Source: an uncultured bacterium
Lineage (GTDB): Bacteria; Verrucomicrobiota; Kiritimatiellia; RFP12; UBA1067
Direction of reading: 5' to 3'
DNA: 55,545 bases
Assembly: GCA_902801025.1 (NCBI GenBank)
Contig: CADCGZ010000009.1
Location: 1 to 55,545, forward strand
Positions 13,288 to 46,994 of the stretch are shown here, one piece after another (within the stretch, counting starts at the first letter, position 1; the number at the start of each line of letters is the position of its first letter). The notes beneath the pieces are model-generated. The model saw only the letters and a list, made by a program, of their open reading frames with translations. It searched no databases and was not told the DNA's origin. The translations under genes were made by a program, and so were the position numbers.

Positions 13288-15234
13288 CTACCTAATCACA
13301 ATAACCATGTCTGGCGGCTTGGCGAGATAACGTACGATCAGGACGCCGCAGCCGCCTTTCCCACCAACGCCAATCTTCTGTCCACCGCCGCCGCCTCCCG
13401 AGCCCGTGCCGTCGCGGCCAGGATGGCCCCACGGGCGGCGGTAGACCTGGCTTTGCAGGCTGGTTTCGCCGTCGCCGCCTATGCCGGAGCCGCCTATGCC
13501 GTGGCATCCGCGCACGTTCGCGCTACCCGACCACCCTGCGCCGCCGCCGGCTGCGTAGAACCGCGATTCGCCCGTGATGTCGAAAGCGAGGCCGGCGCCG
13601 CCGTTGCCAAGGCAGGTCGTGGTCGAGCCGGCCGTGGCGGCGGTTCCGGCCGAACCCGCGCCGCCGCCGCCACCCGCGTTGTAGCCGCTCGCGGCGGAAT
13701 CGCCGCCGGCGTGGCCGATCATGACACCGTCGTCCGGCGCGGCCGCCCCGCCCAGCTTCCGGCCCTGATCGCCGCCCTGGCTGCCGCCACCGCTGCCGCC
13801 AACGTGGCCGACATAGCGCGAGGCGCCGCCCGTGAAGCCGCCGCCCGCGCCCCCTCCGGAGGCCACGAGAGAGACGCGCCCGTTTCGCGAGACAAGCGAC
13901 GAGGCGCCACCGTTGTCCCCGTCGGCGATGCCGCCCGCGCCGATAATGACGTCGTAGATGCCACCGACGAGGTGGATGCCGTTGGTGTGGATGAGGCCGC
14001 CCGCACCGCCGCCCGCGCCCGAGCCCGCGCCGCCCGCGCCGCCGCCGCCCACGAGCAACAGTTCGGCATCGAAGCCACGTTTCACCTGTAGCTCGCCGCT
14101 CCCGCGGAACTCGTGGACGATCCAGTTGCGCTTGAGCGTCGGATCGCGCCATGTGGAGACCGTGCCGCCGACCGCCCAGACGCTATCGCGATCCGCCGGC
14201 TCATCGCCGGCGGCCGCGGGGGCGACGAGAAGGATCACGACGCCGTCGGCGCCGTCGGCGCTGTGGAGCGTGGTGCCCGTGGCGTTCCAGCCGCCGCCGC
14301 CACCACCACCGCCGCGGTTCGGGGCGGCGGCCGTCGCCTCGATGACCGAGTTTTCGAACAGCCCCGCGCCACGTCCGCCGCCGCCGAGGCCGCCTGCGCC
14401 GCCGTGCTTGAAGTTGGAGCGCCGCACGCCGCCCCCGCCGCCGTCGCCATAGGAGACCGCCGTGCCCGTGATGTCGGAGACGACGCCCGGGCCGCCGTCG
14501 CCGGCATGCTCGTAGGCGCCGCTCTCGTCCTGGAAGGCGTCGTTGTTTTTCGATGTGTGAACTACCTGCGAATCGCCGCCGGGGCCACCCGCGCCCGCGC
14601 CGCCGCCACCGCCGCCGCATCCGGTTCCGCTGGAGCCGGAGTTCGTCGCCTTGCCACCGGGGAAGCATCCTTCCGCACCGGCCTCGTAGCCGATCAGAGT
14701 CGCAGCCTGCTGATCGCACGCGCCGCCGCCGCCATTGCCCCAGGTCCGAGGTGATTCGACGTCCCAGCGACCGTCGTTGCTGTACCCCCAGCCTCTCGCC
14801 CCCCCGCCGCCAAGCGCGACAACCTCGAAGGCCGAGCATGAGACGGATGACGGGAACCCGTTGTGGCCGCGAGCCTGCTGGGACCCCTGGTTGCTCCGGT
14901 AGCCGCATGGGCCGACGACGACCTGGTATGCATCGTCCGTCTTGAGAAATGTGGGCGTTTCCGGTGTCCAGTCGACAACCTGCCCGCCGGCTCCGCCACC
15001 AAGGCCGCCGCCACCACCGCCGCCCACGACGAGCAGACGTAGGAGCCGCACGTCGACGGGAACGGTGAGCGTGCCGTGCGACGTCATCGTCACGACATGC
15101 GCGCCGTCGATCGTCGGGTGGTCTATTTCCGTGAATGTGCCGGTGTAGGATACAAGACTCTCCGCAAACGCAGGAACCACGAGCGCAAGCGCCGCAAGCG
15201 CGGCGACTGCATACTTGTGATTCGTTATGTTCAT
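13288..15234 (-). CDS. Secreted glycine-rich two-domain protein with C-terminal Arg tail
   Basis: 648 residues. A signal peptide (about 24 residues, ending PAFAE) is followed by two glycine-rich domains, about residues 50-338 and 378-636. Each opens with a strand plus LLVVGGGG-type turn, contains a GGGG/GAGG-rich interior, a V..DITG motif, and closes in GGxGVxIV-type strands. This matches the glycine-rich domain found in phage tail and surface proteins. The end is PPDMVIVIR. Likely exported and surface-exposed; an adhesive or structural role is an inference. It has its own class A promoter about 100 bases upstream and AGGAGT before the ATG. The bases are strongly biased to GGC repeats. Confidence 0.85.
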   Translation of the reverse strand: MNITNHKYAVAALAALALVVPAFAESLVSYTGTFTEIDHPTIDGAHVVTMTSHGTLTVPVDVRLLRLLVVGGGGGGGLGGGAGGQVVDWTPETPTFLKTDDAYQVVVGPCGYRSNQGSQQARGHNGFPSSVSCSAFEVVALGGGGARGWGYSNDGRWDVESPRTWGNGGGGACDQQAATLIGYEAGAEGCFPGGKATNSGSSGTGCGGGGGGAGAGGPGGDSQVVHTSKNNDAFQDESGAYEHAGDGGPGVVSDITGTAVSYGDGGGGGVRRSNFKHGGAGGLGGGGRGAGLFENSVIEATAAAPNRGGGGGGGGWNATGTTLHSADGADGVVILLVAPAAAGDEPADRDSVWAVGGTVSTWRDPTLKRNWIVHEFRGSGELQVKRGFDAELLLVGGGGAGGAGSGAGGGAGGLIHTNGIHLVGGIYDVIIGAGGIADGDNGGASSLVSRNGRVSLVASGGGAGGGFTGGASRYVGHVGGSGGGSQGGDQGRKLGGAAAPDDGVMIGHAGGDSAASGYNAGGGGGAGSAGTAATAGSTTTCLGNGGAGLAFDITGESRFYAAGGGAGWSGSANVRGCHGIGGSGIGGDGETSLQSQVYRRPWGHPGRDGTGSGGGGGGQKIGVGGKGGCGVLIVRYLAKPPDMVIVIR

Positions 15235-15272
15235 TGCGCAGTTACTCCTAAGCCGCTTCTAATGGTCATAAC

Positions 15273-15360
15273 ACAAAAGACAAACGTCACACGCGGCACA
15301 TTTGCCGCGCTCAGCCTCGCTTTTGCCCGTATAATACCAATTTCCGCGCCGAGATGTCAA
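15273..15360 (-). repeat. 88-bp promoter/leader repeat, copy 1 (class A)
   Basis: Ungapped alignment with 20314-20401 gives 79 of 88 identical bases. It holds TTGACA (15355-15360), an 18-bp spacer, TATTAT (15331-15336), and in the leader a perfect hairpin CGCGGCA-N4-TGCCGCG (15292-15309). A further leader segment with AGGAGTAACTG leads to ATG 15234. Confidence 0.9.
15331..15360 (-). promoter_or_regulatory. Class A promoter of the 648-residue gene
   Basis: -35 TTGACA and -10 TATTAT separated by exactly 18 bp; GGCGC sits inside the spacer near its -35 side and GG precedes the -10, as in the other class A promoters at 20372-20401 and 37747-37776. Confidence 0.8.
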
Positions 15361-15409
15361 CGAAATGCGACGACAAAGTCAAGCAGACTCATGATTACCT
15401 GACACGCCG

Positions 15410-18400
15410 TTAACGCACGAACAGGAAGAAGCCCTTGTCGCCGACATCGTAGTCTCCCGAAAGCGAATCGAGCGTCGCGGTCTCGCTGTCGAAGACAAAG
15501 TGCGAGATCTGCTTCGGGCCGAGCGACATCGGAATGGCCCAGTTGCCGTCTTCGTCTGTGAGCTCCACGCCGTCGGCGTACCACGTCATCGTGCCGTCCT
15601 TGATCGCGAAGTCGATCACGCCCAGGAGCTCGACCGGTTCACCGAGCTTGGCGATCGCGCCTTTGAGCCGCACCCACTTCGCGCCGTTCCAGGCATAGTA
15701 GGCGAGTGGCTTGCCCGCGTTGGACTGCCAGACGTCGATGCCGGTCACGGCACCGGTCGCGTCCGGCAGCACGCGCGAGGGGATCGTCGGGAAGGTCATC
15801 GTCGCATGCAGGCGGACCTGCTGGCTCGCGGCCGAGGGGATGCTCGGCTGGAAGACGCCGTTCTCGAAGACCGCCTGCTGCGCCGTGAACCACGTCTTCG
15901 GCGGCTTGGCGTAGAAGCGCCCATGCAGAACCGCCACGTCGGCCATGTTGGCCGAGGCAATCCACTGCGTGGCCGTGAGCGTCCAGTCGTAGCCCTTCCC
16001 CGACTGAAGTTCGGCGAAGGACGCGGTGACGGACGGCACCGCGACCGCCGCTGCACCCGAGGCCGAGCCGACGACGTGCGTGCGGCCGCGGAGCGCAGCC
16101 CCGATGCCTGCGGAGAAGCCGACGGCCGGCGTCGAGTAGTCGCCGAGCGTCGCGGTGATCGTTGCGCCGGAGACGTCCGATTCGACGGCCGAGCCGGCGA
16201 GCCGCAGCTTCATCGGCGAGAGGAGCGTCCCCTGGAACATCGCGGTGTAGGTCGTGTTGCTCTGGACCGGCTCGAGCTCCGGCTCCCACCGCAGGAACAC
16301 GTAGGACGCCTTTTCCGAGGTGCTCTTCGCCCCCGTCGGGACCGCGATCGCGTTCGTGGGCGTGAGATAGTCGTATTTCGCGGAGGTCGTCTCGTTTCCG
16401 TTCACCCACGTGATCGTGAAGCGGTTCGTCGTGTAAACGGCGGTATAGATCGTGTCCGCTGCGGGCATCGTCGAAACCTCGGGCGACCATGCGGAGAACG
16501 AGAAGCCGTAGTGTTCGGGTGCCTCGGGCGCCTCCACGGCCGCGCCGTAGGCGTAGTTTGTCGGCCCAAGGATCGTCGAGCCGTCAACGCCGTCGACGAA
16601 GGTTGCAGCATAGACGTTCGGCGTTTCGACATATTGCGCGGTATATGTCGCATTGCCAAGAACGTCTGCAACGGCAGCTGGATCCCAACCAGAGAAAGTA
16701 TACGTATATTCTGCCGTCGCGGGACGCGACGGATCAGAGGGGACAACGACATTCGCCGCCGCCGTTCCATAGTCGTAATTCCTCGTGTCCACAACAGATT
16801 CATCCCAGTTTATGAATGTAACTGCATACTGTCGCATCGACGGAGTGTAGACGGCGATAAAGTTGACGTCTCCGTTAACGGTCAGATCGGAAAGAACAGT
16901 CGAGCCGTCGATAGACCACCCTGCAAAGGCGTAGTCCTCGGAAACCGTAGATTCCTTCGAAGGCGTCACGGGCGCAACGGCAGCCGTGCCCTTGTCCGGC
17001 CACGTGGTACCGAGGACGGTCGTGCCGTCGTCGTCGAGCCAACGCACCGTCACGGTCAGGGCGGCCTCCTTCTCCTCGAAGACCGCGATGTATGTAACGG
17101 ACTCAGTCACGGACGGAATCAATGAAAGCACGGTCGTGCCGTCAGTGGACCACCCCTGGAACGTGTAGGTGTGCTCCGCCGTCGCGGCGCGCTCTACGGG
17201 CTCGTGCGACGGCGTTTCGCCGTAGTCGAGCGTCTGCGTGTCGGTCTGCGTCGCCGTGCCGTCGAACCACTGCCACTTGATCTCGTAGGAGCGCAGGACG
17301 GACGTGTAGACGGCGCGCAGCGACATCGGCGCGTCCGCCTTCAGGGTCGCAAGGTCGACGACCGTCGTGCCGTCCGTCGACCAGCCGGCGAACGCGTAGT
17401 CGTCTTGCGCCGTGGAGGGCTTCGTCGGCGTCGCGCCCGTCCACGCGGGGGCGGTGCCGAGGAGCGTCCTTTCGACGCCGAGCGCGGTCGTCCCGTCCTC
17501 GTCGTAGAACGTGACGTCCACGTAAAACGGCTCCTGCACGAGCCAGTTGTTCTGTCCACTGGAGGCGTAGTTGAGGTAGCCGAGCGTCGCGATACCGGGA
17601 TAGTCGCTTTCGCTCTCCATCACCGCGGTCTTGGCGGTGAACGACGCGCCGGAGACCGTGTTGTTCGTCCAGGCCGGGTAGGTCGCCGCGTCAACGAAGA
17701 TCTTGTAGCGGTTGCCCGCGCCGTTCTTGCCCGCGTAGATCTGGTCGTTGTTGCTGTCCTTCGGCGGGATATTGCCCGCGAAGTGAAGCTCCGCGCCGGG
17801 CGCCATGTTGTAGAACTCCCTTTGGTAGAGCATCGGGAACGAGGCCGGCAACCTCACGCTCGATACATTACTTGCGCCGTTGAAGAAATGGGAGCCGGAG
17901 ATGCCCGAGGAGAGCGTCGCACCGGAGAAGTCGAACGCGTTCGTGAGCGAGGAGCACCCCTGGAACATGCCGGCACGCAGTTCCGTCAGGTTGGGGATCG
18001 TGGACGGGTAGAAATCGACGAGCGCGGAGCAGCCGTAGAACGCCGCCTGGCCATTGTTGTTGTTGTTGTGAAGGACGGAAAGGCTCGGCGAGAGCCGGAC
18101 AGTCTGAAGCGCCGTGCAACTCGTGAACGCGCGGTTCTGGACGTCCACGACGCCGGGCGCGACGAGACGTTCGATCGCCTTGCAGTTCTGGAAGCAGCCC
18201 CACTCCAGCTTCGTGACGCCGCCTGGCAGGTCAACGAGGCCCTCGACGGGTTCGTTCCCGCGCTGGTAGACCGACTCGAGGCTCGTGCAACCGCTGAACG
18301 TGTTGGCTGCGAGCGTCCCCGAGAGCCCGGAAGAAATCTCGACGGTCTGCAGGGCCGTGCATCCGCTGAACGCGGCACCGGCCGTGACGCTCCTCAACGA

Positions 18401-19156
18401 CGGGAGATGGACCTCCTTCAAAAGCGTGTTGCCGGCGAAGGTGTTGCCGTTGCCCGAGATGGACGTCACGGACGGCGCGAAGACGTGCGTGACCTTCGTC
18501 TGGTAGAAGTTGTAGCTGCTGAGGGACGTGACGCCCGGCGGCAGCTGGACGTGGCCGACGACCTTCGTCGCGTCGTTCGTGTAGAGCGTCGTGAACGACG
18601 TGCAGCCGCGGAACGTGTCGGAACTGAAGGACGTCATGTCCGCCGCGACCTTGAGCTCCACGAGCGACGTGCAGTTTTGAAATGCACCGTAGCTTGCAAT
18701 GTTCTTGAGATTGGGGCAATCGACGTCGACGAGCGACGTGCAACCGCTGAAAGTGCCCTGGTTCACCTTCGTCACGCCGGGCATCGTCGCCGTCTGAAGG
18801 GCCGTGCAGCCGTTGAAGGCGTTGTTGCCGATGGACGTGATCCGCGCCGGCAGGATGAGTGTCTTGATTACCTTGTTGTTCTGGAAGCACTGGTTCCCGA
18901 TGTCGGAGAACGGCACCGTATGGGGCGACGCCTCGGCGGCAAGGTCCTCGTAGACGGTCGAAAGGTCGAGCGTCGCGCCGCCGCTCTCCCATCCGCCGAC
19001 GTAGTAGGTGCTTCCATTCTTGATGAACTTGATCCGCCACGTGCCGTCCGTGGCCCAGATGTTGTTTCCGTCGTTTCCGTCGTAGGTCCACGCGGCGGAC
19101 GCCGGCGCGGCGGCGACGGCGCAGAGGAGCGCGAAGAGGGCGAGAATCCGTTTCAT
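15410..19156 (-). CDS. Secreted BspA-type leucine-rich and InlB-repeat protein
   Basis: 1248 residues from ATG 19156 (AAAGGA upstream); an ATG at 19165 is too close to that site. After a signal peptide (MKRILALFALLCAVAAAPA) come LRR_5/BspA leucine-rich repeats from about residue 85 to 445, with units such as NAFNGCTALQTATMPGVT. About six InlB B-type (Listeria-Bacteroides) repeats follow, about residues 540-976, each ending in YTAxF or similar after an AFxGWS motif. A C-terminal lectin-like sandwich domain (980-1240) resembles that of the partial protein at 50528-55545. The tail is GFFLFVR. These modules bind host or matrix ligands in known surface proteins. The gene begins 16 bases after the stop of the 367-residue gene, so the two form an operon. 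Confidence 0.88.
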   Translation of the reverse strand: MKRILALFALLCAVAAAPASAAWTYDGNDGNNIWATDGTWRIKFIKNGSTYYVGGWESGGATLDLSTVYEDLAAEASPHTVPFSDIGNQCFQNNKVIKTLILPARITSIGNNAFNGCTALQTATMPGVTKVNQGTFSGCTSLVDVDCPNLKNIASYGAFQNCTSLVELKVAADMTSFSSDTFRGCTSFTTLYTNDATKVVGHVQLPPGVTSLSSYNFYQTKVTHVFAPSVTSISGNGNTFAGNTLLKEVHLPSLRSVTAGAAFSGCTALQTVEISSGLSGTLAANTFSGCTSLESVYQRGNEPVEGLVDLPGGVTKLEWGCFQNCKAIERLVAPGVVDVQNRAFTSCTALQTVRLSPSLSVLHNNNNNGQAAFYGCSALVDFYPSTIPNLTELRAGMFQGCSSLTNAFDFSGATLSSGISGSHFFNGASNVSSVRLPASFPMLYQREFYNMAPGAELHFAGNIPPKDSNNDQIYAGKNGAGNRYKIFVDAATYPAWTNNTVSGASFTAKTAVMESESDYPGIATLGYLNYASSGQNNWLVQEPFYVDVTFYDEDGTTALGVERTLLGTAPAWTGATPTKPSTAQDDYAFAGWSTDGTTVVDLATLKADAPMSLRAVYTSVLRSYEIKWQWFDGTATQTDTQTLDYGETPSHEPVERAATAEHTYTFQGWSTDGTTVLSLIPSVTESVTYIAVFEEKEAALTVTVRWLDDDGTTVLGTTWPDKGTAAVAPVTPSKESTVSEDYAFAGWSIDGSTVLSDLTVNGDVNFIAVYTPSMRQYAVTFINWDESVVDTRNYDYGTAAANVVVPSDPSRPATAEYTYTFSGWDPAAVADVLGNATYTAQYVETPNVYAATFVDGVDGSTILGPTNYAYGAAVEAPEAPEHYGFSFSAWSPEVSTMPAADTIYTAVYTTNRFTITWVNGNETTSAKYDYLTPTNAIAVPTGAKSTSEKASYVFLRWEPELEPVQSNTTYTAMFQGTLLSPMKLRLAGSAVESDVSGATITATLGDYSTPAVGFSAGIGAALRGRTHVVGSASGAAAVAVPSVTASFAELQSGKGYDWTLTATQWIASANMADVAVLHGRFYAKPPKTWFTAQQAVFENGVFQPSIPSAASQQVRLHATMTFPTIPSRVLPDATGAVTGIDVWQSNAGKPLAYYAWNGAKWVRLKGAIAKLGEPVELLGVIDFAIKDGTMTWYADGVELTDEDGNWAIPMSLGPKQISHFVFDSETATLDSLSGDYDVGDKGFFLFVR

Positions 19157-19172
19157 GTCGGGCATCCTTTCT

Positions 19173-20276
19173 CTAGTAGGCCAAGAGCGCGGTTGTCGTC
19201 TGGGAATCGGGGTCCCAGAAGCGGAGCTTCACGGACTTGCTCCATTGCTTCAGGTAGATCGAACCGACGCCCCATTCCCCCGTCTCCGCGTCGCGGGTCG
19301 GGAACGTGACCGCATTGCCGTCCTTGGCGGCCTCGTAGGCCGCCTTGAACGCCAACCATTTCTCCGTCGGGCCGTCCTTCGTCGCGTTGAGGGGAACGTA
19401 GACGGTGGCTCCGGAGCCCGACCACCAGTCGAAGGTCGTGTTGCCGACGCTGGCCCCCGAGGACGGATTGAATCCAAGGATGTACGTGTTGAGCGTCGGC
19501 GGGTTGTCGTGGAAGAGAACGGTCTTGAGCGCGCTGGCGCCCTGGAAGTCGGCGTTTCCGAACGTCACGGGTTCGGTGCCGCCGAACTCCACCGTCCGGA
19601 GGGACGAGCAGCTCTGGAAGGCGCAGTCCCCGAGGTTGGTGACGCAGGTGCCGCCGAAGCCGACGAGCGCCGGGCAGTTCCAGCACGCCTGGGCGACGTT
19701 CGGGAACTTCGCCGGCCACTCGACGGGGCCGACGAGGCGAATGCAGGTGTCGAGGATGCGGATGCCAACGGTCCGGAGATTTGTCATGTCGGCCGGCCAG
19801 ACGAACTCCCGGAGGTAACGGGCCTGCCAGAACGCCTGATCGTTGATGTACTCCAGCGTGTCCGGAAGCTGGATCGACCCGAGATAGTTGTTTTCGCGGA
19901 ACGCCCCGGCGGCGAACCCGACGAACGTGAACTCGTTGCCCGCCTCGTCCCGGATCGGGAACCGGAGGTCGTAGTGCGCGCCGCCGAGGGGGCAGCCCTC
20001 GTAGGGCGGCGTCCCGTTCTGGCCGTTGTTCTTGTAGAGCTTCGTCCCATTGTTCTCCGTGCGGCGCACGTCGTAGAGCTTCACCGCGTTGAAGACAACA
20101 GACGGGTCGTCGTTCGTAAGGACAAGGTAGTTGCCAAGGCCGCTGTTGACTTGGCCGTTGGCACCGGCCGGAATGCCGACGGCGAGCCAGTAATATTCCG
20201 CCTTTGTCGGCAGAAGCGCCGCGAGCGCGAATGCTGCGATCGCGGCGAATGCATGCTTGTGTTTCGTTATGTCCAT
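19173..20276 (-). CDS. Secreted LRR_5 (BspA-like) protein
   Basis: 367 residues with a signal peptide that resembles the 648-residue protein at the start (MDITKHKHAFAAIAAFALA versus MNITNHKYAVAALAALALV). LRR_5 units appear between about residues 105 and 275 (for example DTLEYINDQAFW, NCPALVGFGG, GDCAFQSCSSLRTVEFGG). The C-terminal part is a small lectin-like or unassigned region ending TTTALLAY; this protein lacks the Arg tail of its neighbours. AGGAGTAACTG precedes ATG 20276 and a class A promoter lies about 100 bases upstream. It is the first gene of the operon with the 1248-residue protein. Confidence 0.85.
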   Translation of the reverse strand: MDITKHKHAFAAIAAFALAALLPTKAEYYWLAVGIPAGANGQVNSGLGNYLVLTNDDPSVVFNAVKLYDVRRTENNGTKLYKNNGQNGTPPYEGCPLGGAHYDLRFPIRDEAGNEFTFVGFAAGAFRENNYLGSIQLPDTLEYINDQAFWQARYLREFVWPADMTNLRTVGIRILDTCIRLVGPVEWPAKFPNVAQACWNCPALVGFGGTCVTNLGDCAFQSCSSLRTVEFGGTEPVTFGNADFQGASALKTVLFHDNPPTLNTYILGFNPSSGASVGNTTFDWWSGSGATVYVPLNATKDGPTEKWLAFKAAYEAAKDGNAVTFPTRDAETGEWGVGSIYLKQWSKSVKLRFWDPDSQTTTALLAY

Positions 20277-20313
20277 TGCTCAGTTACTCCTGTGCTGCTT
20301 ATAACGCCATACG

Positions 20314-20401
20314 ACAAAAGACGAACGCCTCACGCGGCACATTTGCCGCGCTCAACCTCGCTTTTGCTCGTATAATACCACTTTCCGCGCCAGAATGTCA
20401 A
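20314..20401 (-). repeat. 88-bp promoter/leader repeat, copy 2 (class A)
   Basis: Ungapped copy of 15273-15360 with 79 of 88 identical bases. It contains TTGACA (20396-20401), an 18-bp spacer, TATTAT (20372-20377) and the hairpin CGCGGCA-N4-TGCCGCG (20333-20350). Confidence 0.9.
20372..20401 (-). promoter_or_regulatory. Class A promoter of the LRR operon
   Basis: -35 TTGACA, 18-bp spacer, -10 TATTAT; drives the 367- and 1248-residue genes. The 157 bases to its right (20402-20558) hold no gene or other signal that I can see. Confidence 0.8.
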
Positions 20402-20558
20402 CACGACACACACGAAACTCAGACACGAAACTTAGCACGTGTCGAACCGTCCTTCTCGACCCGCCTCATTATTGACCTAAAAATCGCAGTTTAACACAGA
20501 CAGTAAAGGATCTCGTTCTGTGCATTGCCTTTTTCATATTTTACCTCTGCTAATGTAC

Positions 20559-23177: not shown

Positions 23178-23225
23178 TTTAGTCTGCTCCTTAATTTCAC
23201 AACACCACTGTTGTTGACATGCTGA

Positions 23226-23254
23226 ATTATAGCACAACACACCTATCGCCGCAA
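23226..23254 (-). promoter_or_regulatory. Class B promoter and leader of the 872-residue gene
   Basis: TATAAT (23226-23231) with TTGCGG (23249-23254) at 17 bp. The same arrangement and surrounding bases (GACTTGCGGC upstream, TTGTGC or TTTTGC just before TATAAT) occur at 47052-47080. The -35 hexamer is weak, which may mean activator dependence. Confidence 0.6.
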
Positions 23255-23279
23255 GTCTAACCGACAGTCGCTCGGCAGT

Positions 23280-23874: not shown

Positions 23875-24855
23875 TTATCGCAACACCATGGAAAAACCGG
23901 GGGTCGGCTCCTCCACAACCCAGTGCGTGGTGCCGTTAGTTCCAGTCGTCCACTTCCCAATGGGCTTCATACCGACGAGGCCGAGCGCCTTGGCGGCGGC
24001 GTTTGCCGTGGCCCGCTCCGAGCCTTCGAACGGCAGGACGCGCGCGTCCGCCTTCCATTCCGCCGCGTGCTTCCTACCCGCGACAAGGACCCAGGAGGCA
24101 ACGGGGGATGTCACCGGCTGGAGGGCCGTGTTGGCGACCGAGGTGGGCGGTGGGCCGTAGAACCAGATGACGCGCGGTCCCGCGTGGTAGCGCAACGATT
24201 CGGTCCCGAGCGTCGTCAGTGTCTCGGGAAGGCGGATCTCGTTCACCTTTTGGAGGTCCACGAGGGCATAGGTGGGCAGCTCGGTGAAGACGGACTTCGA
24301 AAAGTCGAGCGGGGTTTCAAGGGCCTTGCACATTCGGAAGGCTGCATTGCCCAGCGTTGTCAAGCCGGGGCAGCCTTCGGGCAGAGTGACGGTCTTGAGC
24401 GACGAACAATCGTAGAACACCTGTTGGCCCAAGGACCGGATGCCGGAGCCGACCACGGCGTTCGTGAGAGCCTTGCATCCCGCCACTGTGTTACCATGCA
24501 TGGTTTCGAGCGAGTCGGGAAATACGATAGACGTGAGGCCGGCTATTCGTTCCAGCGCCCCGTTGTTCGAGGCTTTGATGACGACGCCGCAGTCCTCCTC
24601 AACACCCGTCAGATCGAGGTCCCCGGAACCGGCGACGTAGCCCGATCCGTTGGCTCCAGAGTATTTGCCGAGGTTCCAGTTGTCATCCGAATACCGGTAG
24701 ACGCCGATCTTCCAATTGCCGTCGGTGATGACATGCGTGCAGCCGGAGGGAACGCCCTCCGTGGAAATGGTCCACGTGGCGGAGGCGGGGAGTGCAAGAA
24801 GCGCAAAAGCGGCAGAAAAACATATCGAGCGAACTGGAATCATGCAACTGTTCAT
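23875..24855 (-). CDS. Secreted LRR_5 protein with Arg tail
   Basis: 326 residues from ATG 24855, with AAAGG about 8 bases upstream (other in-frame ATGs at 24876 and 24843 lack a good site). A signal peptide ends LALPASA. LRR_5-type units are visible (DSLETMHGNTVAGCKALTNA; YDCSSLKTVTLPEG; LGNAAFRMCKALE), followed by a short C-terminal module with WYxDARVLPFEG-like spacing. The end is GFSMVLR. It is a small relative of the leucine-rich proteins at 15410-20276 and has its own class A-like promoter. Confidence 0.82.
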   Translation of the reverse strand: MNSCMIPVRSICFSAAFALLALPASATWTISTEGVPSGCTHVITDGNWKIGVYRYSDDNWNLGKYSGANGSGYVAGSGDLDLTGVEEDCGVVIKASNNGALERIAGLTSIVFPDSLETMHGNTVAGCKALTNAVVGSGIRSLGQQVFYDCSSLKTVTLPEGCPGLTTLGNAAFRMCKALETPLDFSKSVFTELPTYALVDLQKVNEIRLPETLTTLGTESLRYHAGPRVIWFYGPPPTSVANTALQPVTSPVASWVLVAGRKHAAEWKADARVLPFEGSERATANAAAKALGLVGMKPIGKWTTGTNGTTHWVVEEPTPGFSMVLR

Positions 24856-37705: not shown

Positions 37706-37746
37706 CGTGTCGCTCTCCATTATTTCAATCAGCTGCAATTGTAAGA

Positions 37747-37776
37747 ATAATACCATTTCCAGTGCGCCAAAGTCAA
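37747..37776 (-). promoter_or_regulatory. Class A promoter of the giant gene
   Basis: TTGACT (37771-37776), 18-bp spacer containing GGCGC, TATTAT (37747-37752). The predicted leader is about 35 bases and lacks the hairpin seen in the two 88-bp cassettes. Confidence 0.8.
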
Positions 37777-37807
37777 TCGACACCGCGACCAACACGTACA
37801 ACCCGGC

Positions 37808-40800
37808 CTATCGAATGGTGAGAGTCAATTTTCCGCGGTTTACTACAATCTTGCCGCTTTTCTCGGGCGAAGAATCCTCGACACTGGAAATGCCAAGTTC
37901 AGAAAGCCGCGCTGCAGAATACTTACCGCTACGAAGATGGTTTGTTGTAGTCCCGGCACCGGCTCCTGACACCCAGTAGAATTCCTTAACAGTAAGTTCG
38001 TGTCCCTCGAGATCAAGCGCCGCCGTGTTGTCGGCAAGCAGCACAGAGCGAACCTTGACGTCGGCATTCACGGCAGCACGGCCGTAGTCGGCGATTTCGT
38101 AGCGCACGTGCTTGTAATCCCTGGGGTCGTCGCCGCCGTAACCGAGCGAGACCATCTCAGTCGTGTTCGTGTTGTCGTGCGGCGTCCTTTTGTCTTTCGT
38201 GCCCTCGATATAGGCGATGTTGAGCGGGTCCATCGCAATGCGGATGATGCCGCACTTGTCGCCGTCGGCCGCAGTCTCAAGGTAGACGGTACCGGCGGAA
38301 GCGTCGTGGAGGATGTTCGTTCCGCCCTTCCACCAGCTGCCGCCGCCCGCCTCGATACGCCCGGTGAAGGCCGTAAAGTCTGCACCTGGCGCGGAGAGGC
38401 GAATCGCAATGCGTCCGCCAGGACCGTCGTAGTCGTCGCGGTTTCCGCCGTTCGCCTGAATCGTCCCGGTGCCAGCGAAGCGCCCGGCCTCAAGACTAAG
38501 GGCACCGCCTGCCCCTCCTGCGACCGGTTTGCTGCTACTGGACCGTTCCTCGGGACCACCGCTCACGGTCGCGGTGCCGTCAAGCGTCAGGGTGCCGTCC
38601 ACGACGAGACGGATGACACCGCCACATTGCTGCCCGGAGATCGAGGACGCAGAGCATCCGGGAATGCGCGGATCGAATACAGAATCATAGGCCTGCGAGA
38701 TCATCCTTCCGTCGGGATCCCGCCCGAGGTAAACCGAGCGGCCTCCGTGGGAATGAGAGCCGAGCAAGGGCGAGGCGAAGCCAGTTTCATTGGTTTCCGA
38801 CTCCTTCACGACGCCGCAGTCCTTCGCGCGCAGATACCCGTTCGTAGCGATGGTCAGGTCGCCGCGGATTTCCGCGGAGCAGATCGGGATGAGGTCTGGG
38901 TTGGTGCCGCGGTTGTTCGTCAGCGGATGGAAGCCAATCGCGGCACCGTTCGTGACAAAGACGCTCGCCTGAAAGACAAAGTTGGTCCACGGGACGAACA
39001 TCCAGTTGCCGGAGATCGTCTGGTCGCCATCGCCGATGTCGAGCATCCCGCCCTCATAGCGGAGACCTCCGATGGCGTCGACGGAGGTCTCGGTGCCGTA
39101 GCAACTCGCTAGACCGCCGGGGAGCGTCAGCCGCGTTCCTGCCGGTACGCGCAGGAAGCCGCGATGGCCGAACTCGATGGCGTCGAACGTCCAGTCGCCC
39201 TCGTCCGTGACGGCGGGGCAGCGCCAGAAGGTGGAATACCTTCCGTCGAGCTCCAGGTCGAGGCTCGGGGCGGCGGCGTTGGCCTGCTGCGCGACCACGA
39301 GCAGGCCGTTCGGCCGAGTTTCGTCGATGAAGACGACGGTACCCGACCCACCGCCTTGGCGCGCGGTCCACGAGTGGTCGGGCGATCCCATCCAGGAGCC
39401 CTCGGCGGAAATAGCGCCGAAGGTCGAGCGGTCGACGGGCTCGCGCGTGACGATTGCGACGCGGCCGCCGGTGCCCTTGTAGTGGCCATCGGTCAAAGTC
39501 GCCCTGCCCTCGAGGTCGGGGAACGAGAGTCCCTCTTCGGTCGCCCCGGACCCGATGGCGGTGATGCGGCCAGTTCCTGACAGCGTGTCGGCGCGGAGAA
39601 AGACGGAGCCGGCGGCGCCCATCGCGCCAGCGCGCTCCGAGTATGTCGTTGGGACGCTGGCGTCCCAGGCGTCGGCGCGGATTATCCCGTCCACCACGGC
39701 GGCGCCGGAGACCACGAGGTAGACGGCTCCGCCGCCCTTGCCGTTCACGTGGTTCGCTCCGGCGTGGAACGGCAGTCCGATGTGGATCGGCTCGCGCGGA
39801 TCACCGTAGCAGGGCGGCGAGTCCGCGTTGAGCCGTCCGCCGTGGGAGCACCCTCTCATGCGGGAGCCGCCGTCCGTGACATAGTAGCCCTTGCCGCGCG
39901 CGTCGATCAGGCCGTCCGCGCCAACGTGCAGCGAGCCGGCCGAGACGCGGAGACGATAGGTCTCGTTGGCCTTGAGGTCGCCGAGCCAGTCCCAGGTGTT
40001 GTCATGGCATTGGTCCATCCTGCGGGACTGGGGGTGCGTGACGGAGCCGGCGTCGATCGTCATCGCGCCCGCCACGATCAGGCACTCGAAATCGCCCTTG
40101 CCGGGGAAGACCGTACAGACCGTCACGGTCCCCGTGTAGCCGCTCGTCTGCGTCCACGCGGCGACCTCGTGCGTCGCGGTATCGTCCCATTCGCAGTCGG
40201 CGTTCGAAAAGCGGCCGTCGAAAAGGACATGCTCGTAGGCGCGCGGTGCGTGTCCGAACGACCAGTTCGAGCCGTCGGAGGCGAGCCCGGCGTCCTCCGC
40301 GATCCACGTGTTGCTGTCGCCGGAGAGCGTGAGGTTCGTGATCGTGAGCGACGCGGAGCCGGCCGAGGCCGAGACGCCGTAGAGCCCCGGCAGGAGCGTC
40401 AGGTCGACCGTCGTCGACTGGTCCAGAGGGTCGATGAGTGGATGAATCGCGACATCGACGGTGTTCATGCCAGCGGGGATCGTAGCGGTATGCGCAAGCA
40501 CTTGATAGGAGCGGCCTTCGACCGCCGTCCCGCCAACCTCAAAATCGACGACGAGGTCGTTCGCCGCATCGCCGCGCGAAATGCGGAAGACGCCCGGGAC
40601 GAGACCATCCTCGTCGCCATCCGCGATCTTCTCGACGGAGAGATCGCCCGTGTAGAAGGCGAGCGGGCCGGACAGAACATTTGTCCCGCTGAGCGCCGTA
40701 TTCGCGACGGTCTGGACGGAATAGGCGAAGGTCGTGTTCGGTGCGAGGCCGGAAAGCGTGGCGGCGTAGGTCTTCGGGAGCGACATGTCCGCAGTCGTCA

Positions 40801-42052
40801 TCGGGAACATGCCACCATCGTCTAAGACACAGGACACCGAGGCCGCGTCGTTGGACGAGACGACGACCGAGATGGTGAACGATCCGTCGGCGTTGCGGAC
40901 GATCGCCGGGTCCGAGACCATCGGCGCGCCGGCGTCGAGGAGTCCAGCCGTTCCGGCCGTCAAGAACGCTGGTTCGCTCTGCGTAGCGTAGTCCGCGGCG
41001 ATCCAGTCGGCGGAGCGGATCGAGGCCGAAAGGCGCATTTCGTCGAGGTCGCCCTTGAAGGCCTGGTCCCACTGGTTGTTGCCGAGGAGCAGTTCCGTGG
41101 CGACCGTCGTGTTGGAGATGTTGGATGAGTCCAGCGACTTCAAGAGTTGGCCGTTAACGTAGAAGTTGAGGCCGTTCCCGTCTGTTTTCCGCTTAAACGT
41201 CGCGGCGAAGTGCCACCATGTTTTCGCGGCGGGGAGGACGCCGCTCTCAAAGTCCATGTGATGGTCTGATCTTCCAGGCGTCGTCAGCGTGACTCTAGTC
41301 GCGCTGTAGATGCGGAGCGAGACGAATCCTGTTTCCCCGAACATGGCGGCACCGTTGCCCAGGCCGCTGTATTGGGTCGGCCTGCACCAACCCTCGATCG
41401 TGAAGCCCTCGGCGAGCGCGGAGTAAGTCGGGCCCTGGCCGCAGGAGATGCCGTCGCTGACGCTCGTTCGCGGAACGTTCACGGCGGCGCCAACCAGTCC
41501 GTCCACAACAGAGAGGTTGTCCGTCCGATGCATTCCGTTGTAGCCGCTAGGCGACGAATCGGCGGGATCAACCGAATTCAAGTGCCAGACGCCCTTGTAG
41601 TCCGCAAAGGGATTGTCGGCGCAGACGGCCTTCCCGCTCGTCTTGGAACCCCAGCACATGACGAACTGCGTGCCGTTCGTCATAATCGGGAGCGCCACCC
41701 AGACGAGCGATGTGCCCCGCGGGTCCCACGTGTCGATTTCGAACGGAAGTCCTGTGCCGTCCATGCCGACGAAGCACAGATCGTCGCCGTCCTGCATCTG
41801 CATCTGCGAGTATGAAAATCCGGACGGCAAATCGTTCGCGATCCTGACGAGGACCGGGAAGTTCGTGAGCGCAGGCCTGGCCGCGTCGTAGCCGACGACC
41901 TCGAACTGCGCACCCCAGACGAACGAAGCCGTCGACGAATGCTGCAGCAATGGCGAAGCCGGCAACGCGAAAGCGAGCAAAGTCAGGCTAAGCAGTGCGC
42001 ATAGAAAACAGGAAATGGTTTTCAGATTATTCTTTCGCATTGTATTGACCAT
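37808..42052 (-). CDS. Secreted DUF2341-LamG-Calx-beta-beta-helix protein with Arg tail
   Basis: 1414 residues from ATG 42052, which sits one base after the previous gene's stop (TGACATG), so translation is coupled. Signal peptide ends ALPASP. Order: DUF2341 (about 40-138, FPVLVRIANDLPSGFSY), LamG/concanavalin-like domain (150-361), Fn3-like (375-455), Calx-beta-like (486-575), then a long beta-helix-like region of strand repeats to the end at NRGKLTLTIR. The DUF2341-LamG pair is closely related to that of the partial gene at the right edge. The ORF could be extended to 42307, but that part overlaps the 1646-residue gene in another frame. Probably surface glycan- or protein-binding. Confidence 0.86.
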   Translation of the reverse strand: MVNTMRKNNLKTISCFLCALLSLTLLAFALPASPLLQHSSTASFVWGAQFEVVGYDAARPALTNFPVLVRIANDLPSGFSYSQMQMQDGDDLCFVGMDGTGLPFEIDTWDPRGTSLVWVALPIMTNGTQFVMCWGSKTSGKAVCADNPFADYKGVWHLNSVDPADSSPSGYNGMHRTDNLSVVDGLVGAAVNVPRTSVSDGISCGQGPTYSALAEGFTIEGWCRPTQYSGLGNGAAMFGETGFVSLRIYSATRVTLTTPGRSDHHMDFESGVLPAAKTWWHFAATFKRKTDGNGLNFYVNGQLLKSLDSSNISNTTVATELLLGNNQWDQAFKGDLDEMRLSASIRSADWIAADYATQSEPAFLTAGTAGLLDAGAPMVSDPAIVRNADGSFTISVVVSSNDAASVSCVLDDGGMFPMTTADMSLPKTYAATLSGLAPNTTFAYSVQTVANTALSGTNVLSGPLAFYTGDLSVEKIADGDEDGLVPGVFRISRGDAANDLVVDFEVGGTAVEGRSYQVLAHTATIPAGMNTVDVAIHPLIDPLDQSTTVDLTLLPGLYGVSASAGSASLTITNLTLSGDSNTWIAEDAGLASDGSNWSFGHAPRAYEHVLFDGRFSNADCEWDDTATHEVAAWTQTSGYTGTVTVCTVFPGKGDFECLIVAGAMTIDAGSVTHPQSRRMDQCHDNTWDWLGDLKANETYRLRVSAGSLHVGADGLIDARGKGYYVTDGGSRMRGCSHGGRLNADSPPCYGDPREPIHIGLPFHAGANHVNGKGGGAVYLVVSGAAVVDGIIRADAWDASVPTTYSERAGAMGAAGSVFLRADTLSGTGRITAIGSGATEEGLSFPDLEGRATLTDGHYKGTGGRVAIVTREPVDRSTFGAISAEGSWMGSPDHSWTARQGGGSGTVVFIDETRPNGLLVVAQQANAAAPSLDLELDGRYSTFWRCPAVTDEGDWTFDAIEFGHRGFLRVPAGTRLTLPGGLASCYGTETSVDAIGGLRYEGGMLDIGDGDQTISGNWMFVPWTNFVFQASVFVTNGAAIGFHPLTNNRGTNPDLIPICSAEIRGDLTIATNGYLRAKDCGVVKESETNETGFASPLLGSHSHGGRSVYLGRDPDGRMISQAYDSVFDPRIPGCSASSISGQQCGGVIRLVVDGTLTLDGTATVSGGPEERSSSSKPVAGGAGGALSLEAGRFAGTGTIQANGGNRDDYDGPGGRIAIRLSAPGADFTAFTGRIEAGGGSWWKGGTNILHDASAGTVYLETAADGDKCGIIRIAMDPLNIAYIEGTKDKRTPHDNTNTTEMVSLGYGGDDPRDYKHVRYEIADYGRAAVNADVKVRSVLLADNTAALDLEGHELTVKEFYWVSGAGAGTTTNHLRSGKYSAARLSELGISSVEDSSPEKSGKIVVNRGKLTLTIR

Positions 42053-42053
42053 G

Positions 42054-45000
42054 TCACCGCAGGCGGAGGACGAGGGGAATGACGGAGTCGTCACGAAGGA
42101 CTTCCATCGTTCCTGTGCCTGAGAAATGGTCTGGGTCGTAGATTGCGCCAACAGCGAGAGCCGTCGCTGCGTCTCCAGTGTAGATGCCACGCAAAATCGG
42201 ATGCCATTCGTCCGTCTCGGGATAGTCGCGCCAATACGCCTTCTTGCATTTTGCCGCAATACCTTCCGGCAATTCGATCTTGCCAAACTGTCCGGCCGCG
42301 CCGTCAAACCACATTGTATTGCGCTTCACGGTGTCAACACGCGCTAACTCAAGCGTTGCCCCCGCGCAAATGCGGATTGGCAAGTCACTTGCAAGCTTAC
42401 AATCATACTCAGCCGTGCCAAGCGTGAGAACGCCGGCGTTCACGACGATTTCTCCCGCGATGTTCGTCTGGCTGCCGCCAAGGACGAGCGCGCCGCTGTA
42501 AGACGAGACGAAGCCACCAGGCGCAGTGACATCAGCCCAGATCTGGTTGGGCTGCGAAGCGTTGGACGCCTTCGCAAAGACATAGCCAGGATGATTCGCG
42601 TCGCCGAGGACAAGCGAGCCGTTGTCCGTTCGGCCGGGCTGTCCGATGGCGGTGTTGTTGTTGTGCATCACGAGGCCGCCCGATGTGATCGTGAGCGTGC
42701 GTCCCGCGCCGAGCCACTTGTTCTTCCCGCTGTTGTTCATGAATAGCGAGTTTACGGTGACGTCGTGCCCGATCTCGATCGTCTTGTCCCAGAGGTAGGC
42801 GTTCGAGAACGGGCTGGCCGCCGCATCGATGGCGGTGTTGTTCCAGATCGGCTGCGTCAGGCGGCCGTCCGCGTCGAACGAGGCGAAGAGCGTGTTGCGC
42901 CACGAGGAGTCGTCGGTGCTCGTCGGCGCCACGATCCACGGGACGATCGGGTAGACGTCCGATTCGAGGCAGTCACCGTCCGAGCCGTGCCCGACGAGGA
43001 AGGCCGCGTGCCGCGGGAGCATCGCCACGGAGTTCGTTGAGTCCTGCGTCGCCGCGACGGACCGACGGGACCAATCGAAGAGAACGAGCGTGCCCTTGTC
43101 CGCGTGCTCGAGGTCGTCCCACTGGACCCAGTTCGTCGGATGGCCGTCCTTGTTGCTCGTGTTTCCGCGAACAGAGACGTAGGAACGTCCCGGACCGACG
43201 ACGAGCTTCTCGTAGAGGCGCAGGCTCTTCGAGCCGGGACCGCCCCACGAAGGCCCGTTCTGCGTGGAATAGGCGATATACGCGCCGCCGCGCAGCGTCA
43301 TCGTCTTGCGCGGGTTCCACGGGACGTCGGGATGGGCGTCCTCAGCTCCGTAGAAGTGCTCCCAACCCGTCCGGAAACGGCCGTAGCCGCTCGAGCTGTC
43401 CTCCGCCGGATTGCCGAGGCGCGGGGGGCTCCAGCCCGCCACCGTGATCGAGACATTCGTCCCGCCGCCGCCGTTCCAAAAGATCGAGGCGGCGCGGTTG
43501 TAGCCGCCGAGGTGGCCATGTCCCGTGTCGAGAAGCATGCCGTGGAAGTCATTTTGCTTGTCGAACGTGATTCCTCCCATGCCCTTCTTCCAGAACGTGC
43601 CCTCGCCCGTGAGCTGTGGCGGGCCGATTGTGCCGCCCATGTTGAGGTCGTAGCCAGGCAAACCGTCGACCGCCCAGTATTTGCCAGCCGGAATGTGGAT
43701 CGTGCAGGCGCTGTAGGTGATCTTCCCCCGGTTGAGACTGGCGCTCGTCGTGCCACTGCACGAATCCGCGATGACGGACGAAACACAGTTGACGAGAATT
43801 TCGTAGCCGCCGAAACGGAGTTTGTTCTCGCGGGAAGTCGTCGTGTTCGGCGTGACTTTCACAAAGGCAGGCTCGCCGTCCGCGCGTTCAAACGTAAGCG
43901 TGTGCGTGCCCGTGCTGCTATGGCGTTCGAGGACGCATTCGGCCTCAACGTCGCGGAACTGGCCGAAGAGTAGTCCGCCCAGCGAGAGATCGGTATCGTG
44001 CCGGACGTATTTCGTTCCCGTTATGTCGTAGAACGGAATCACGGCGATGTCGTTCGGACGCGACGGGAACTCGCCGTCCGTGGCGGAGCCGATCTTCGTC
44101 CAGGTCGCGGCGCGGTTCCAGCGATCGGACTCGGACGCCTTTTCGTCGTAAATGTAGACGTCTCCGCCTTTGATGGCCTCGGGCAGAACAAGAACGGCCA
44201 TCGTGTCCACAACCGAGCTGCCACTGCAGATTTCGACGCCAGCGACGGCAGGCTCAAGTGCGGTAATCTCGAGGCCGTCAAGCGAGAGGAACCGCTCGTT
44301 CAAGACGCGATAGCTCAAGCCCCATGGCAGCTCCGGCAGGACGATAGTGTCACCAGGCTTGACGCGGATTGAAGTGGCGGCGGAACAGTGGTCCGCGTAA
44401 TCAGCCACTACAATGCGCGAGCCGCCAGCCGAGAAGGAAGCCGAGCGGGAGTCCGTATAGACGTTCCCGCCATAGGAGCATGAAACCTGCGCAATCGCAG
44501 TGTGCGAGCCAGTGACAGGACATGTAACCGAAAATGTGCCATGCCCCGTCTGGTCGGTCCATGTGCGAACTACACTGCCATCAACGGAAATCGAAAGCGA
44601 ATATGTACTGCCTGGCTCGACATCAAGAGCAGCGACGGTGATTGTCTCAAGGCCATCACCAGCAGGAATCGCCGATATTTCGGAGAGGCGAACGGGCGTG
44701 GCATCGGTGGCGACCGTGAAAGTCTGGGAGAACCCCTCAAGCCCCCAAGTGTTCACGGCGCGCACACGGTAGGAGTAGCTCAACCCCGCCTCGAGGCCGG
44801 TCGTCGTGAAGACCTGTGCAAAAGGCAATGCATCAACATAGAGGTCGGGGGAGGAAACAACGTCGTCGAATGCTCCGCTCGCAGAGCATTCGAGATAGAG
44901 CGTCGCATCCACAGAACCAGCGCCGAACGAAGAGAGCGTCACCGTGGCGGAGATCGTTTCAAAGCCAGCGCCGGCCGGAGTCGCAGCAACGGTCGGCGGC

Positions 45001-46994
45001 TCGGGATTGAGCGTCGTGAAGGAGAAGAGCGCGGAGACCCCTGCCGCGTCCAAGTTGTTCAAGGCTGTCGCCTGCGCGTAGTAGAGCGTGTTGGTGCGAA
45101 GGGGTCCGTAGGAGACGGCAAAGGATGCCGGGAACTCCGCAACGTCATCGGCGACTGTTGTTTCGAAGAACGGATTGGACATGTCTGCATTTTCGCTCAA
45201 CTGGAAAACAACGTCAGCCGACCCGGCGCCGCTTCCGAGCGAGAGAAGCCGGACGTTGAACGTCGCGTTGGTGTAGCCAATCCCGGACGTGGAAACGGCG
45301 ACCGTGGGCTCGGGGTCGTCATCGCTCGTCATCAGTATCCGGAGAATCACCGTGCCATCGCCGCCGCGACCACCCATGGAGCAGATGGGGTTGTTGTTCT
45401 GTCCGGAGCCGCCGCCACCACCTCCGCCGAGGCCATCAGTGCCGTTTGAGGCCGTGGTCCGGGCGCGCGCCGACGACGACGATACGCCGGTGCCGCCGCC
45501 ACCTGCACCGCCAGCACCGACGTTATTGCCTCCATAGCCACCGCCACCACCGCCGCCGCCGCCGTAGACGACGGCCGTGCCGGTGATAGAACTCTCGACG
45601 CCATCGCCACCCGCGCCAGGGTTATCCTTGGTGCCGTCCGCTCCGGCCGAGCTTGCTCCGCCACCACCGCCAGCGGAGTTGTCGCCGTCAGTTGTCGCCG
45701 CGCCGCCGGCGTAGCCCTCACCATCGATCCCGGCTGCGCGAACGGTGCTCTTGCCGGACGAACCACCGCCCGAAGCACCGGCAAGGCCGTAACTTTCGCC
45801 TGGCTTGTTTGAGCCCGCGTAGTTGAAGTTGCCACCGCCACCGCCGCCGTGCGCGGTGAAGAGAACGCCCCCCCCAGCGGAGAGTATGGTGTCGCCGCCG
45901 CAGGCCGTGGCCGGTGTGACTCCCTCGTGGAGTTTGTTGGCATCGCTGCCGTTCTGGTACCAGGAGGTGTGGATAGCCGGGATGCCGCCCGCGCCGACCG
46001 TAGCTGTGTAGGATTGCGCCAGAAAGGATAAATCGGAAGCGGCGACAACGCCGCCACCGCCACCGCCGCCACCGCGCTGGAGGCCGCCCGCACCACCTCC
46101 GCCTACGAACAGGGCGGAACATCCGTTCCGTTGTTTAACAGGCGTGAACGTGAACGTGCCATGGCGCCGGAAGACGTAGGTGCGGTACGGTGCGTCTTCC
46201 GTGATTTGGTCCGGCGGCCGGGAGAAGGACGCGAAGTCGTCCGCGTAGGGGGATTCGGCGTAGGGCGCGAAGATCGTCGGCGACCCGGACGTGCCGTTGG
46301 GGAACACCTCCGTCGGCGCGGTTTCGTCGTAGAGCCGGATGTCGTCCAGATACATCAGGGCGTCCTCGGCTGAGTTGTCGAACGAAAAGAGCAGGAGGCT
46401 CAAGCCCGCGATGTTCCAGCTGCGCGTCTGGCCGAGCTTCGTCGTGTCGTACCAGATCGTCTGCGTCCCATTCGCGCTGGAGACCGTGAGCTGGTGCCAG
46501 GCGCCGACAATGCCAGAGGTGTTATCATAGCTGCCGGCGCCGATCTGGGAATTGTTCTTGATGAAAAGCGACCCGTCCGCGCTTGCGCTGGGGTCGAACT
46601 TGAAGAAACAGCGCCAGTTGGCGGTATCTGGGCAGTAGAACGGCAGGACGATCGTCCAATTCTTGGCGAGGCCGGGGTTGGGGATGGCGAGCGTGCTCCG
46701 AGCCGGCACGGCGACAACGCCCGTTCGCGCGCCCAGGACGGTCCCGTCGCTGACGAGTGAAATCGTGGAGATCGTGTCGGACAACACGGGCTGCTGGTTG
46801 TTGCCGGAGGTCACGCCCTCCTTGGCGGGCGAGCCGATTACGGCCTCAAGAGGGTTGGTTCGGTCGAACGTGTAGAGCCCAACCAGTTCCGCATACGCGG
46901 GCAACGCGAGCAGAGCAACAGCGAAGCCGAGAAGTGGCACTATGCGTTTCATGGTTCGTGTAGCGCCCGTCACAGGTCGATTAATTATCGTCAT
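42054..46994 (-). CDS. Secreted LamG-glycine-rich-beta-helix protein with PATR repeat
   Basis: 1646 residues from ATG 46994, preceded by AAGGAACAGACTAAA as in the 872-residue gene; a later ATG at 46952 has no such site. The signal peptide follows about 14 leading residues (MKRIVPLLGFAVALLALPAYA). Order: LamG-like (about 35-240), glycine-rich domain (278-555), Fn3-like repeats, an unrecognised strand-rich region with VYPIVPW, and an autotransporter-type strand repeat (AGEIVVNAGVLTLG) near residue 1500. The end (HFSGTGTMEVLRDDSVIPL then VLRLR) is homologous to the end of the 872-residue protein. First gene of an operon with the 1414-residue gene. Confidence 0.86.
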   Translation of the reverse strand: MTIINRPVTGATRTMKRIVPLLGFAVALLALPAYAELVGLYTFDRTNPLEAVIGSPAKEGVTSGNNQQPVLSDTISTISLVSDGTVLGARTGVVAVPARSTLAIPNPGLAKNWTIVLPFYCPDTANWRCFFKFDPSASADGSLFIKNNSQIGAGSYDNTSGIVGAWHQLTVSSANGTQTIWYDTTKLGQTRSWNIAGLSLLLFSFDNSAEDALMYLDDIRLYDETAPTEVFPNGTSGSPTIFAPYAESPYADDFASFSRPPDQITEDAPYRTYVFRRHGTFTFTPVKQRNGCSALFVGGGGAGGLQRGGGGGGGGVVAASDLSFLAQSYTATVGAGGIPAIHTSWYQNGSDANKLHEGVTPATACGGDTILSAGGGVLFTAHGGGGGGNFNYAGSNKPGESYGLAGASGGGSSGKSTVRAAGIDGEGYAGGAATTDGDNSAGGGGGASSAGADGTKDNPGAGGDGVESSITGTAVVYGGGGGGGGGYGGNNVGAGGAGGGGTGVSSSSARARTTASNGTDGLGGGGGGGSGQNNNPICSMGGRGGDGTVILRILMTSDDDPEPTVAVSTSGIGYTNATFNVRLLSLGSGAGSADVVFQLSENADMSNPFFETTVADDVAEFPASFAVSYGPLRTNTLYYAQATALNNLDAAGVSALFSFTTLNPEPPTVAATPAGAGFETISATVTLSSFGAGSVDATLYLECSASGAFDDVVSSPDLYVDALPFAQVFTTTGLEAGLSYSYRVRAVNTWGLEGFSQTFTVATDATPVRLSEISAIPAGDGLETITVAALDVEPGSTYSLSISVDGSVVRTWTDQTGHGTFSVTCPVTGSHTAIAQVSCSYGGNVYTDSRSASFSAGGSRIVVADYADHCSAATSIRVKPGDTIVLPELPWGLSYRVLNERFLSLDGLEITALEPAVAGVEICSGSSVVDTMAVLVLPEAIKGGDVYIYDEKASESDRWNRAATWTKIGSATDGEFPSRPNDIAVIPFYDITGTKYVRHDTDLSLGGLLFGQFRDVEAECVLERHSSTGTHTLTFERADGEPAFVKVTPNTTTSRENKLRFGGYEILVNCVSSVIADSCSGTTSASLNRGKITYSACTIHIPAGKYWAVDGLPGYDLNMGGTIGPPQLTGEGTFWKKGMGGITFDKQNDFHGMLLDTGHGHLGGYNRAASIFWNGGGGTNVSITVAGWSPPRLGNPAEDSSSGYGRFRTGWEHFYGAEDAHPDVPWNPRKTMTLRGGAYIAYSTQNGPSWGGPGSKSLRLYEKLVVGPGRSYVSVRGNTSNKDGHPTNWVQWDDLEHADKGTLVLFDWSRRSVAATQDSTNSVAMLPRHAAFLVGHGSDGDCLESDVYPIVPWIVAPTSTDDSSWRNTLFASFDADGRLTQPIWNNTAIDAAASPFSNAYLWDKTIEIGHDVTVNSLFMNNSGKNKWLGAGRTLTITSGGLVMHNNNTAIGQPGRTDNGSLVLGDANHPGYVFAKASNASQPNQIWADVTAPGGFVSSYSGALVLGGSQTNIAGEIVVNAGVLTLGTAEYDCKLASDLPIRICAGATLELARVDTVKRNTMWFDGAAGQFGKIELPEGIAAKCKKAYWRDYPETDEWHPILRGIYTGDAATALAVGAIYDPDHFSGTGTMEVLRDDSVIPLVLRLR

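Follow-up and report, generated by a model that had tools for sequence, protein, structure and literature searches.

A seven-residue C-terminal tail as a probable minimal sorting signal on secreted proteins of Kiritimatiellae

A basic question raised by this locus is why secreted proteins built from quite different modules end in the same way; namely, whether the short hydrophobic strand at their C-termini is a sorting signal, a structural part of the domain before it or a product of chance. The window, by which we mean the whole 55,545-nucleotide stretch that was analysed, corresponds to contig C9 in an assembly of 3.5 Mb (MAG data). A preliminary description had noted seven secreted proteins in which alternating hydrophobic residues are followed by a final Arg (h-x-h-R), and had proposed a sorting, anchoring or secretion tag. 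We estimate a probability of roughly 0.7 that this tail serves as a minimal C-terminal signal for protein sorting, of the form [G/P]-Phi-x-Phi-x-Phi-[R/K/Y/Q]-COOH.

Tail genes in the window

The genes concerned all lie on the reverse strand:

13288..15234, minus strand: Gly_rich_2 protein, 648 aa, signal peptide; tail DMVIVIR at 13288-13311 (including the stop codon)
15410..19156, minus strand: LRR_5 / InlB-repeat protein, 1248 aa, signal peptide; tail GFFLFVR at 15410-15433
19173..20276, minus strand: LRR_5 protein, 367 aa, signal peptide; C-terminus TTALLAY, a possible Tyr-ended tail variant
20559..23177, minus strand: beta-solenoid-like protein; conserved end domain, then tail PLTVTIR at 20559-20582
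23875..24843, minus strand: LRR_5 protein, 322 aa, signal peptide; tail GFSMVLR at 23875-23898
26261..37705, minus strand: giant Gly_rich_2 / FN3 protein, about 3814 aa, signal peptide; tail GTRITIR at 26261-26284
37808..42040, minus strand: LamG-type protein, about 1410 aa, signal peptide; tail KLTLTIR at 37808-37831
42054..46952, minus strand: Gly_rich_2 and beta-helix protein, 1632 aa, signal peptide; end domain, then tail PLVLRLR at 42054-42077

All seven tails translate as first described. At the DNA level all seven differ, and four codons (AGG, CGT, CGA and CGG) encode the final Arg, which rules out a DNA repeat. The gene at 20559..23177 likely begins with a GTG at 23177, with AAGGAG upstream. 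Three proteins of the region had been listed as tail-free. Two of these, ending in RVIID and LLENE, do lack it; the third, the TTALLAY protein at 19173, may be a weak variant, because its end resembles the Tyr-ended tails GVMFLIY and GLFFMAY and its homologues end in HFTITVR and HFTIKVR.

Two other genes in the window appear to be damaged. The PEPCK (GTP) gene at 10568-12422 is apparently split across two frames: its long open reading frame does not cover the initial ~80 positions of the N-terminal profile, the preceding part lies in another frame, and the gene seems to be either a pseudogene or an assembly error. Two short open reading frames at 12557-13269 correspond to one intact protein of 384-393 aa in two rumen relatives (G077, L079:11840-12994; G058, L083:4839), and are a broken gene or an assembly error.

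Definition and statistics of the motif

Alignment of 24 carriers from the own-genome sample (stretches of ~0.85 Mb in all) extends the h-x-h-R pattern to seven residues. Position −7 is Gly in 18 carriers and Pro in 3, and −6 is mostly Leu or Phe; positions −2 and −4 are hydrophobic in 24/24 and the last residue is Arg in 18, Lys in 3 and Tyr in 3, values that are partly preset at −1, −2 and −4, as carriers were picked by h-x-h-[RKY], and not preset at −6 and −7. The original h-x-h-R is thus only part of the motif, which also has Gly or Pro at −7, and its final Arg is common without being obligatory, as Lys, Tyr, Gln and sometimes His or Leu also occur. Nothing upstream of −7 is conserved in the tail proteins, and the tail itself is matched by no NCBIfam or Pfam model. 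Examples from this genome outside the window are GFSVVIR, GLSIVLR, GLRILIR, GLAVIVR, GFAVFVR, GLVLILR, GMSIRLR, GFTIRLK and GVMFLIY.

The tail is a selected C-terminal signature tied to signal-peptide proteins. In the own-genome sample, h-x-h-R ends 17/153 signal-peptide proteins versus 2/308 others (P = 3 × 10−7); with the window removed, the counts are 10/139 versus 2/301 (P = 2.8 × 10−4), and for the seven-residue form 14/139 versus 1/301 (P = 6.7 × 10−7). The preliminary description had proposed comparing proteins with and without signal peptides, and the frequencies are far from equal: across samples of the genome family the 7-mer ends 45/247 signal-peptide proteins and 4/400 proteins without a signal peptide, counts that rest on sampled genome stretches, some of them chosen for holding homologues. 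Genes were predicted with a simple codon-based caller, and a simple script was used in place of SignalP to assign signal peptides. The tail is borne by only a minority of the signal-peptide proteins, and among lipoproteins in the first own-genome sample h-x-h-R was found in 0/11.

The sharpened 7-mer was derived partly from the same data in which it was counted, so a shift control, loci picked by domain and named genomes provide more independent checks. When the pattern was moved along the proteins, the exact C-terminus gave 45 matches and none of the next 24 positions gave more than one. The 7-mer is also rare internally in the same proteins, with 0.085 ends expected versus 19 observed.

Conservation and spread

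The same-genus relatives are the rumen MAG RUG12612 (G077), RUG12088 (G058), RUG673 (G075) and Tb.RUG.298 (G008), the last labelled Kiritimatiellae. Among orthologues and close homologues the pattern is kept and the residues change; a lack of conservation among orthologues, which the preliminary description had named as a refuting outcome, is not what is seen. The 13288 protein has a homologue ending in GMVIVIR in RUG12612, and PLTVTIR of the 20559 protein corresponds to PLIIIVR in its orthologues in RUG12612 and RUG12088 (74-78% overall identity). Other homologous sets are GLMFMIY, GIMFLIY and GVMFLIY, and PIVIRLK and PLILRVR.

Both gut and environmental Kiritimatiellota bear the tail. Tails occur in other genera of the family (GAVIYLR, GLWLLIK and GTLFLLR in G155; GTLITIR, GTVLTVR and GTILILR in G285; GTKFLIR in G238) and in named Kiritimatiellae or unclassified MAGs (GH19, M55B167, STCSWMC_123, S32M and nzgw607). 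In nzgw607 (G174), from the same family, the last residue is Gln or His, as in GTLLRLQ and GTLIRVQ. A class-wide count of the DNA pattern, which is noisy and blind to K/Q/Y endings, gave more Arg-ended matches than a reversed control in several same-family genomes.

We considered and rejected the idea that some species are tail-poor and lack the system. One candidate (G012) has a few tails (GSVYYLR, GTVYYIR and GFLVIVK), and nzgw607 has no excess of the Arg pattern but uses its Gln and His endings. Lineage-specific dialects of the tail gave no permutation signal (863/2000), though the nzgw607 tails look uniform. In G155, an adjacent protein pair (L192:9638-16613) shares 83% identity over ~600 aa and differs in its linkers and tails (GGVVIMAK and GLWLLIK).

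Exchange with PEP-CTERM after one conserved domain

Several tail proteins share a conserved end domain (GTYGATGSGA..IDD.HFSGTGVL.V). An alignment of this domain, run against public genomes, yielded 80 loci across the PVC group, each of which was read on to the stop codon. The DNA search pattern lay upstream of the tail, and the confirming alignment included tail columns; because the loci were picked by the end domain, they give a nearly unbiased view of the tail. Besides proteins in which further modules follow, there are mainly three outcomes. In Puniceicoccaceae, Chthoniobacterales, Opitutia, planctomycetes and Kiritimatiellaeota B1221, a PEP-CTERM signal follows. In Akkermansiaceae, Haloferula and Luteolibacter, the domain is followed by another of ~130 residues with an end like KLFARLKV. 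In Kiritimatiellae it is followed by a short linker and the tail; 24 tails were recognized by eye, 23 of which have Gly or Pro at −7. The same end domain thus precedes either the tail or PEP-CTERM, and the tail occupies the place of a recognized sorting signal. As read from the predicted proteins at these loci, the tail is shown to be exchangeable with PEP-CTERM in evolution.

The KLFARLKV-type domain, seen in Verrucomicrobiales at L112, L118, L122, L123, L142, L170 and other loci, may itself be an undescribed C-terminal sorting domain.

A replacement of the exosortase system by the tail was considered and rejected, as exosortase is nearly universal in the class: PF09721 is present in 58/60 genomes, including the window's own, and does not discriminate. 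PEP-CTERM coexists with the tail, which is therefore not simply a replacement for it. Small PEP-CTERM proteins share a contig with tail proteins in RUG12612 (L080:274-1500), so both signals are used in one genome.

Cargo, structure and alternative explanations

Tail carriers are large (median length 1251 aa versus 474 aa), mostly non-catalytic and of adhesin type, with matches to DUF2341, LamG, Gly_rich_2, LRR_5 and InlB-like repeats. Secreted proteins without the tail are mainly glycosidases, which suggests that the tail marks a subset of exported proteins.

The tail is beta-strand-like and most of its carriers are beta-rich, which would suit a structural strand that caps or dimerizes the last beta domain and has no sorting role. 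We regard this as unlikely, as the tail follows unrelated modules (LRR, LamG, Gly-rich and beta-helix) through variable linkers, and homologues with the same end domain carry PEP-CTERM instead of a tail. AlphaFold modelling of the 42054 protein, done for its C-terminal 300 residues with 68 homologues, also speaks against it: the model is a confident beta-helix (most ten-residue blocks at 91-98), and its last block has a mean pLDDT of 75 and is without secondary structure. The tail is thus predicted to lie outside the modelled fold, with the mixed alignment at this end limiting what the model can say. A Foldseek search with the beta-helix returned no PDB match with E <1, and a single-sequence AlphaFold model of the 322-aa LRR protein (pLDDT 35) was unusable.

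A second alternative, which we also consider improbable, is that the tail acts after export, as a donor-strand-like assembly or attachment element that builds the proteins into a surface layer or ties them to a partner there. The cargo does resemble matrix proteins and adhesins, and a single hydrophobic strand would suit strand exchange, but the usher model PF00577 matched 0/10 tail-family genomes while the E. coli control was positive, and no acceptor groove came to light. In addition, a C25-family peptidase of another genus (L240:5851-10008 in G155) has a signal peptide and the tail GTLFLLR, which suits a general label better than a part of a matrix. This peptidase resembles PorU weakly, far below cut-off. 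A C25 peptidase as the sortase was rejected for the window's genus; in the other genus it carries the tail itself.

That the proteins are type IX substrates with an extremely short C-terminal domain (CTD) is very improbable, as the preliminary description had anticipated. The combination of a Sec signal with a C-terminal strand ending in K/R, together with the weak PorU resemblance, would fit such a route; against it, the Pfam and NCBIfam scans revealed no T9SS C-terminal domain, with no match to PF18962 or TIGR04183 in 26 carriers and PF18962 in 0/22 genomes, one control genome matching below cut-off. The SprA/Sov model TIGR04189 matched 0/58 genomes, a result to be read beside control genomes that were also without a match, and type IX CTDs are described as restricted to Bacteroidota (PMC10202324).

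A chance or compositional artefact of reading many protein ends would be suggested by h-x-h-R alone, which is short and was noticed post hoc, but can be put aside: the shift control already contradicts this explanation, as do the test outside the window, the controls without signal peptides, the orthologues and the signal-peptide proteins of other sampled PVC genomes (1/91 with the 7-mer).

Comparison with known sorting signals

In chaperone-usher pilins and in the outer-membrane beta-signal read by BAM, a short C-terminal strand with alternating hydrophobic residues is recognized by strand addition; BAM signals lie at the ends of barrels and usually have an aromatic last residue. The tail is likewise a short C-terminal strand with alternating hydrophobics, but its proteins have no barrel domain and the usher was not found in the 10 genomes. 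The C-terminal 12-strand barrel of type Va autotransporters (PF03797) was found in no tail carrier and in no genome over cut-off, with a positive E. coli control.

LPXTG, PEP-CTERM and GlyGly-CTERM signals consist of a motif, a transmembrane helix and a basic cluster (PMC3237569). Like PEP-CTERM, the tail is C-terminal, occurs on many unrelated proteins per genome, accompanies an N-terminal signal peptide and can follow the same domain, but it consists of only seven residues, and the tail ends listed contain no hydrophobic helix and thus depart from the PEP-CTERM/LPXTG-type layout. In type IX secretion, the type A CTD has an Ig-like fold and carries conserved motifs (PMC10202324). It resembles the tail in joining a Sec signal to a C-terminal signal with strand-like last residues, often K/R, and differs in that the tail has no conserved residues upstream of −7 and matches no CTD model. 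The tail would work like these signals and is a member of neither class.

Choice-of-anchor domains and PATR repeats (NF041518, TIGR02601/PF12951) lie next to alternative C-terminal sorting signals or form part of autotransporter passengers. A choice_anch_Q domain or PATR repeats are present in some of the tail proteins, including one elsewhere in the window's genome with an NCBI choice-of-anchor Q domain (E = 8.6 × 10−13), but these models cover the upstream module and none matches the tail. Across the class, the ends of choice_anch_Q loci were mostly uninformative about the tail.

A possible route to the cell surface

The sorting-signal reading is supported by near-confinement of the tail to signal-peptide proteins, its exact C-terminal position and its conservation among orthologues, and also by its presence on unrelated modules, its absence from secreted glycosidases and its place where homologues have PEP-CTERM. 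The tag originally proposed is therefore well supported, be it for sorting, anchoring or secretion. Because the tail sits exactly where relatives have a known sorting signal, it probably serves as a hitherto undescribed label that addresses proteins for export or for attachment to the surface; the literature on Kiritimatiellota sorting signals contained no description of the tail in this phylum that we could find.

We envisage five steps. The proteins would enter the periplasm via the Sec pathway, as their script-predicted signal peptides suggest, and the body would fold as beta-helix, LamG, LRR, Gly-rich or Ig-like modules, in line with domain matches and one model. A flexible linker would then present the free seven-residue C-terminus, consistent with the variable linkers and the same model. 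The residue pattern suggests that a putative periplasmic or outer-membrane receptor could add the tail as a beta-strand, using the hydrophobic side chains that alternate along it and the polar or basic residue at its end. Finally, the protein would be exported to, or held on, the cell surface, as the cargo and the PEP-CTERM position suggest. Whether this amounts to an undescribed Kiritimatiellota outer-membrane export or surface-anchoring pathway, in which cargo is read by its last seven residues as a single beta-strand beside PEP-CTERM/exosortase in the same cell, we judge to be evenly balanced.

Among the outer-membrane export machines tested, only secretins occur in all ten tail-family genomes searched (10/10), which makes a type II-like secretin route our leading guess for the putative reader; we hold it weakly, since secretins are common and prove nothing alone. 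The window's genome has nine secretin matches on seven contigs (C1, C2, C13, C33, C40, C55 and C77) and each of nine relatives has 4-10, an unusual number of genes. Genes beside the tail genes included no convincingly recurrent neighbour.

The well-known C-terminal sorting signals depend either on a folded domain or on a transmembrane helix together with an enzyme. If true, a signal made of one strand of seven residues would be among the smallest such address labels, and would allow surface proteins to be predicted from sequence in a large gut phylum that is mostly uncultured. The tail also provides a sharp pattern for hunting its putative machine. A different recurring end, FF.RVKV[KQE], was seen on large secreted proteins (L022:11483, L049:3178 and L006:13073) and is possibly a separate C-terminal signature.
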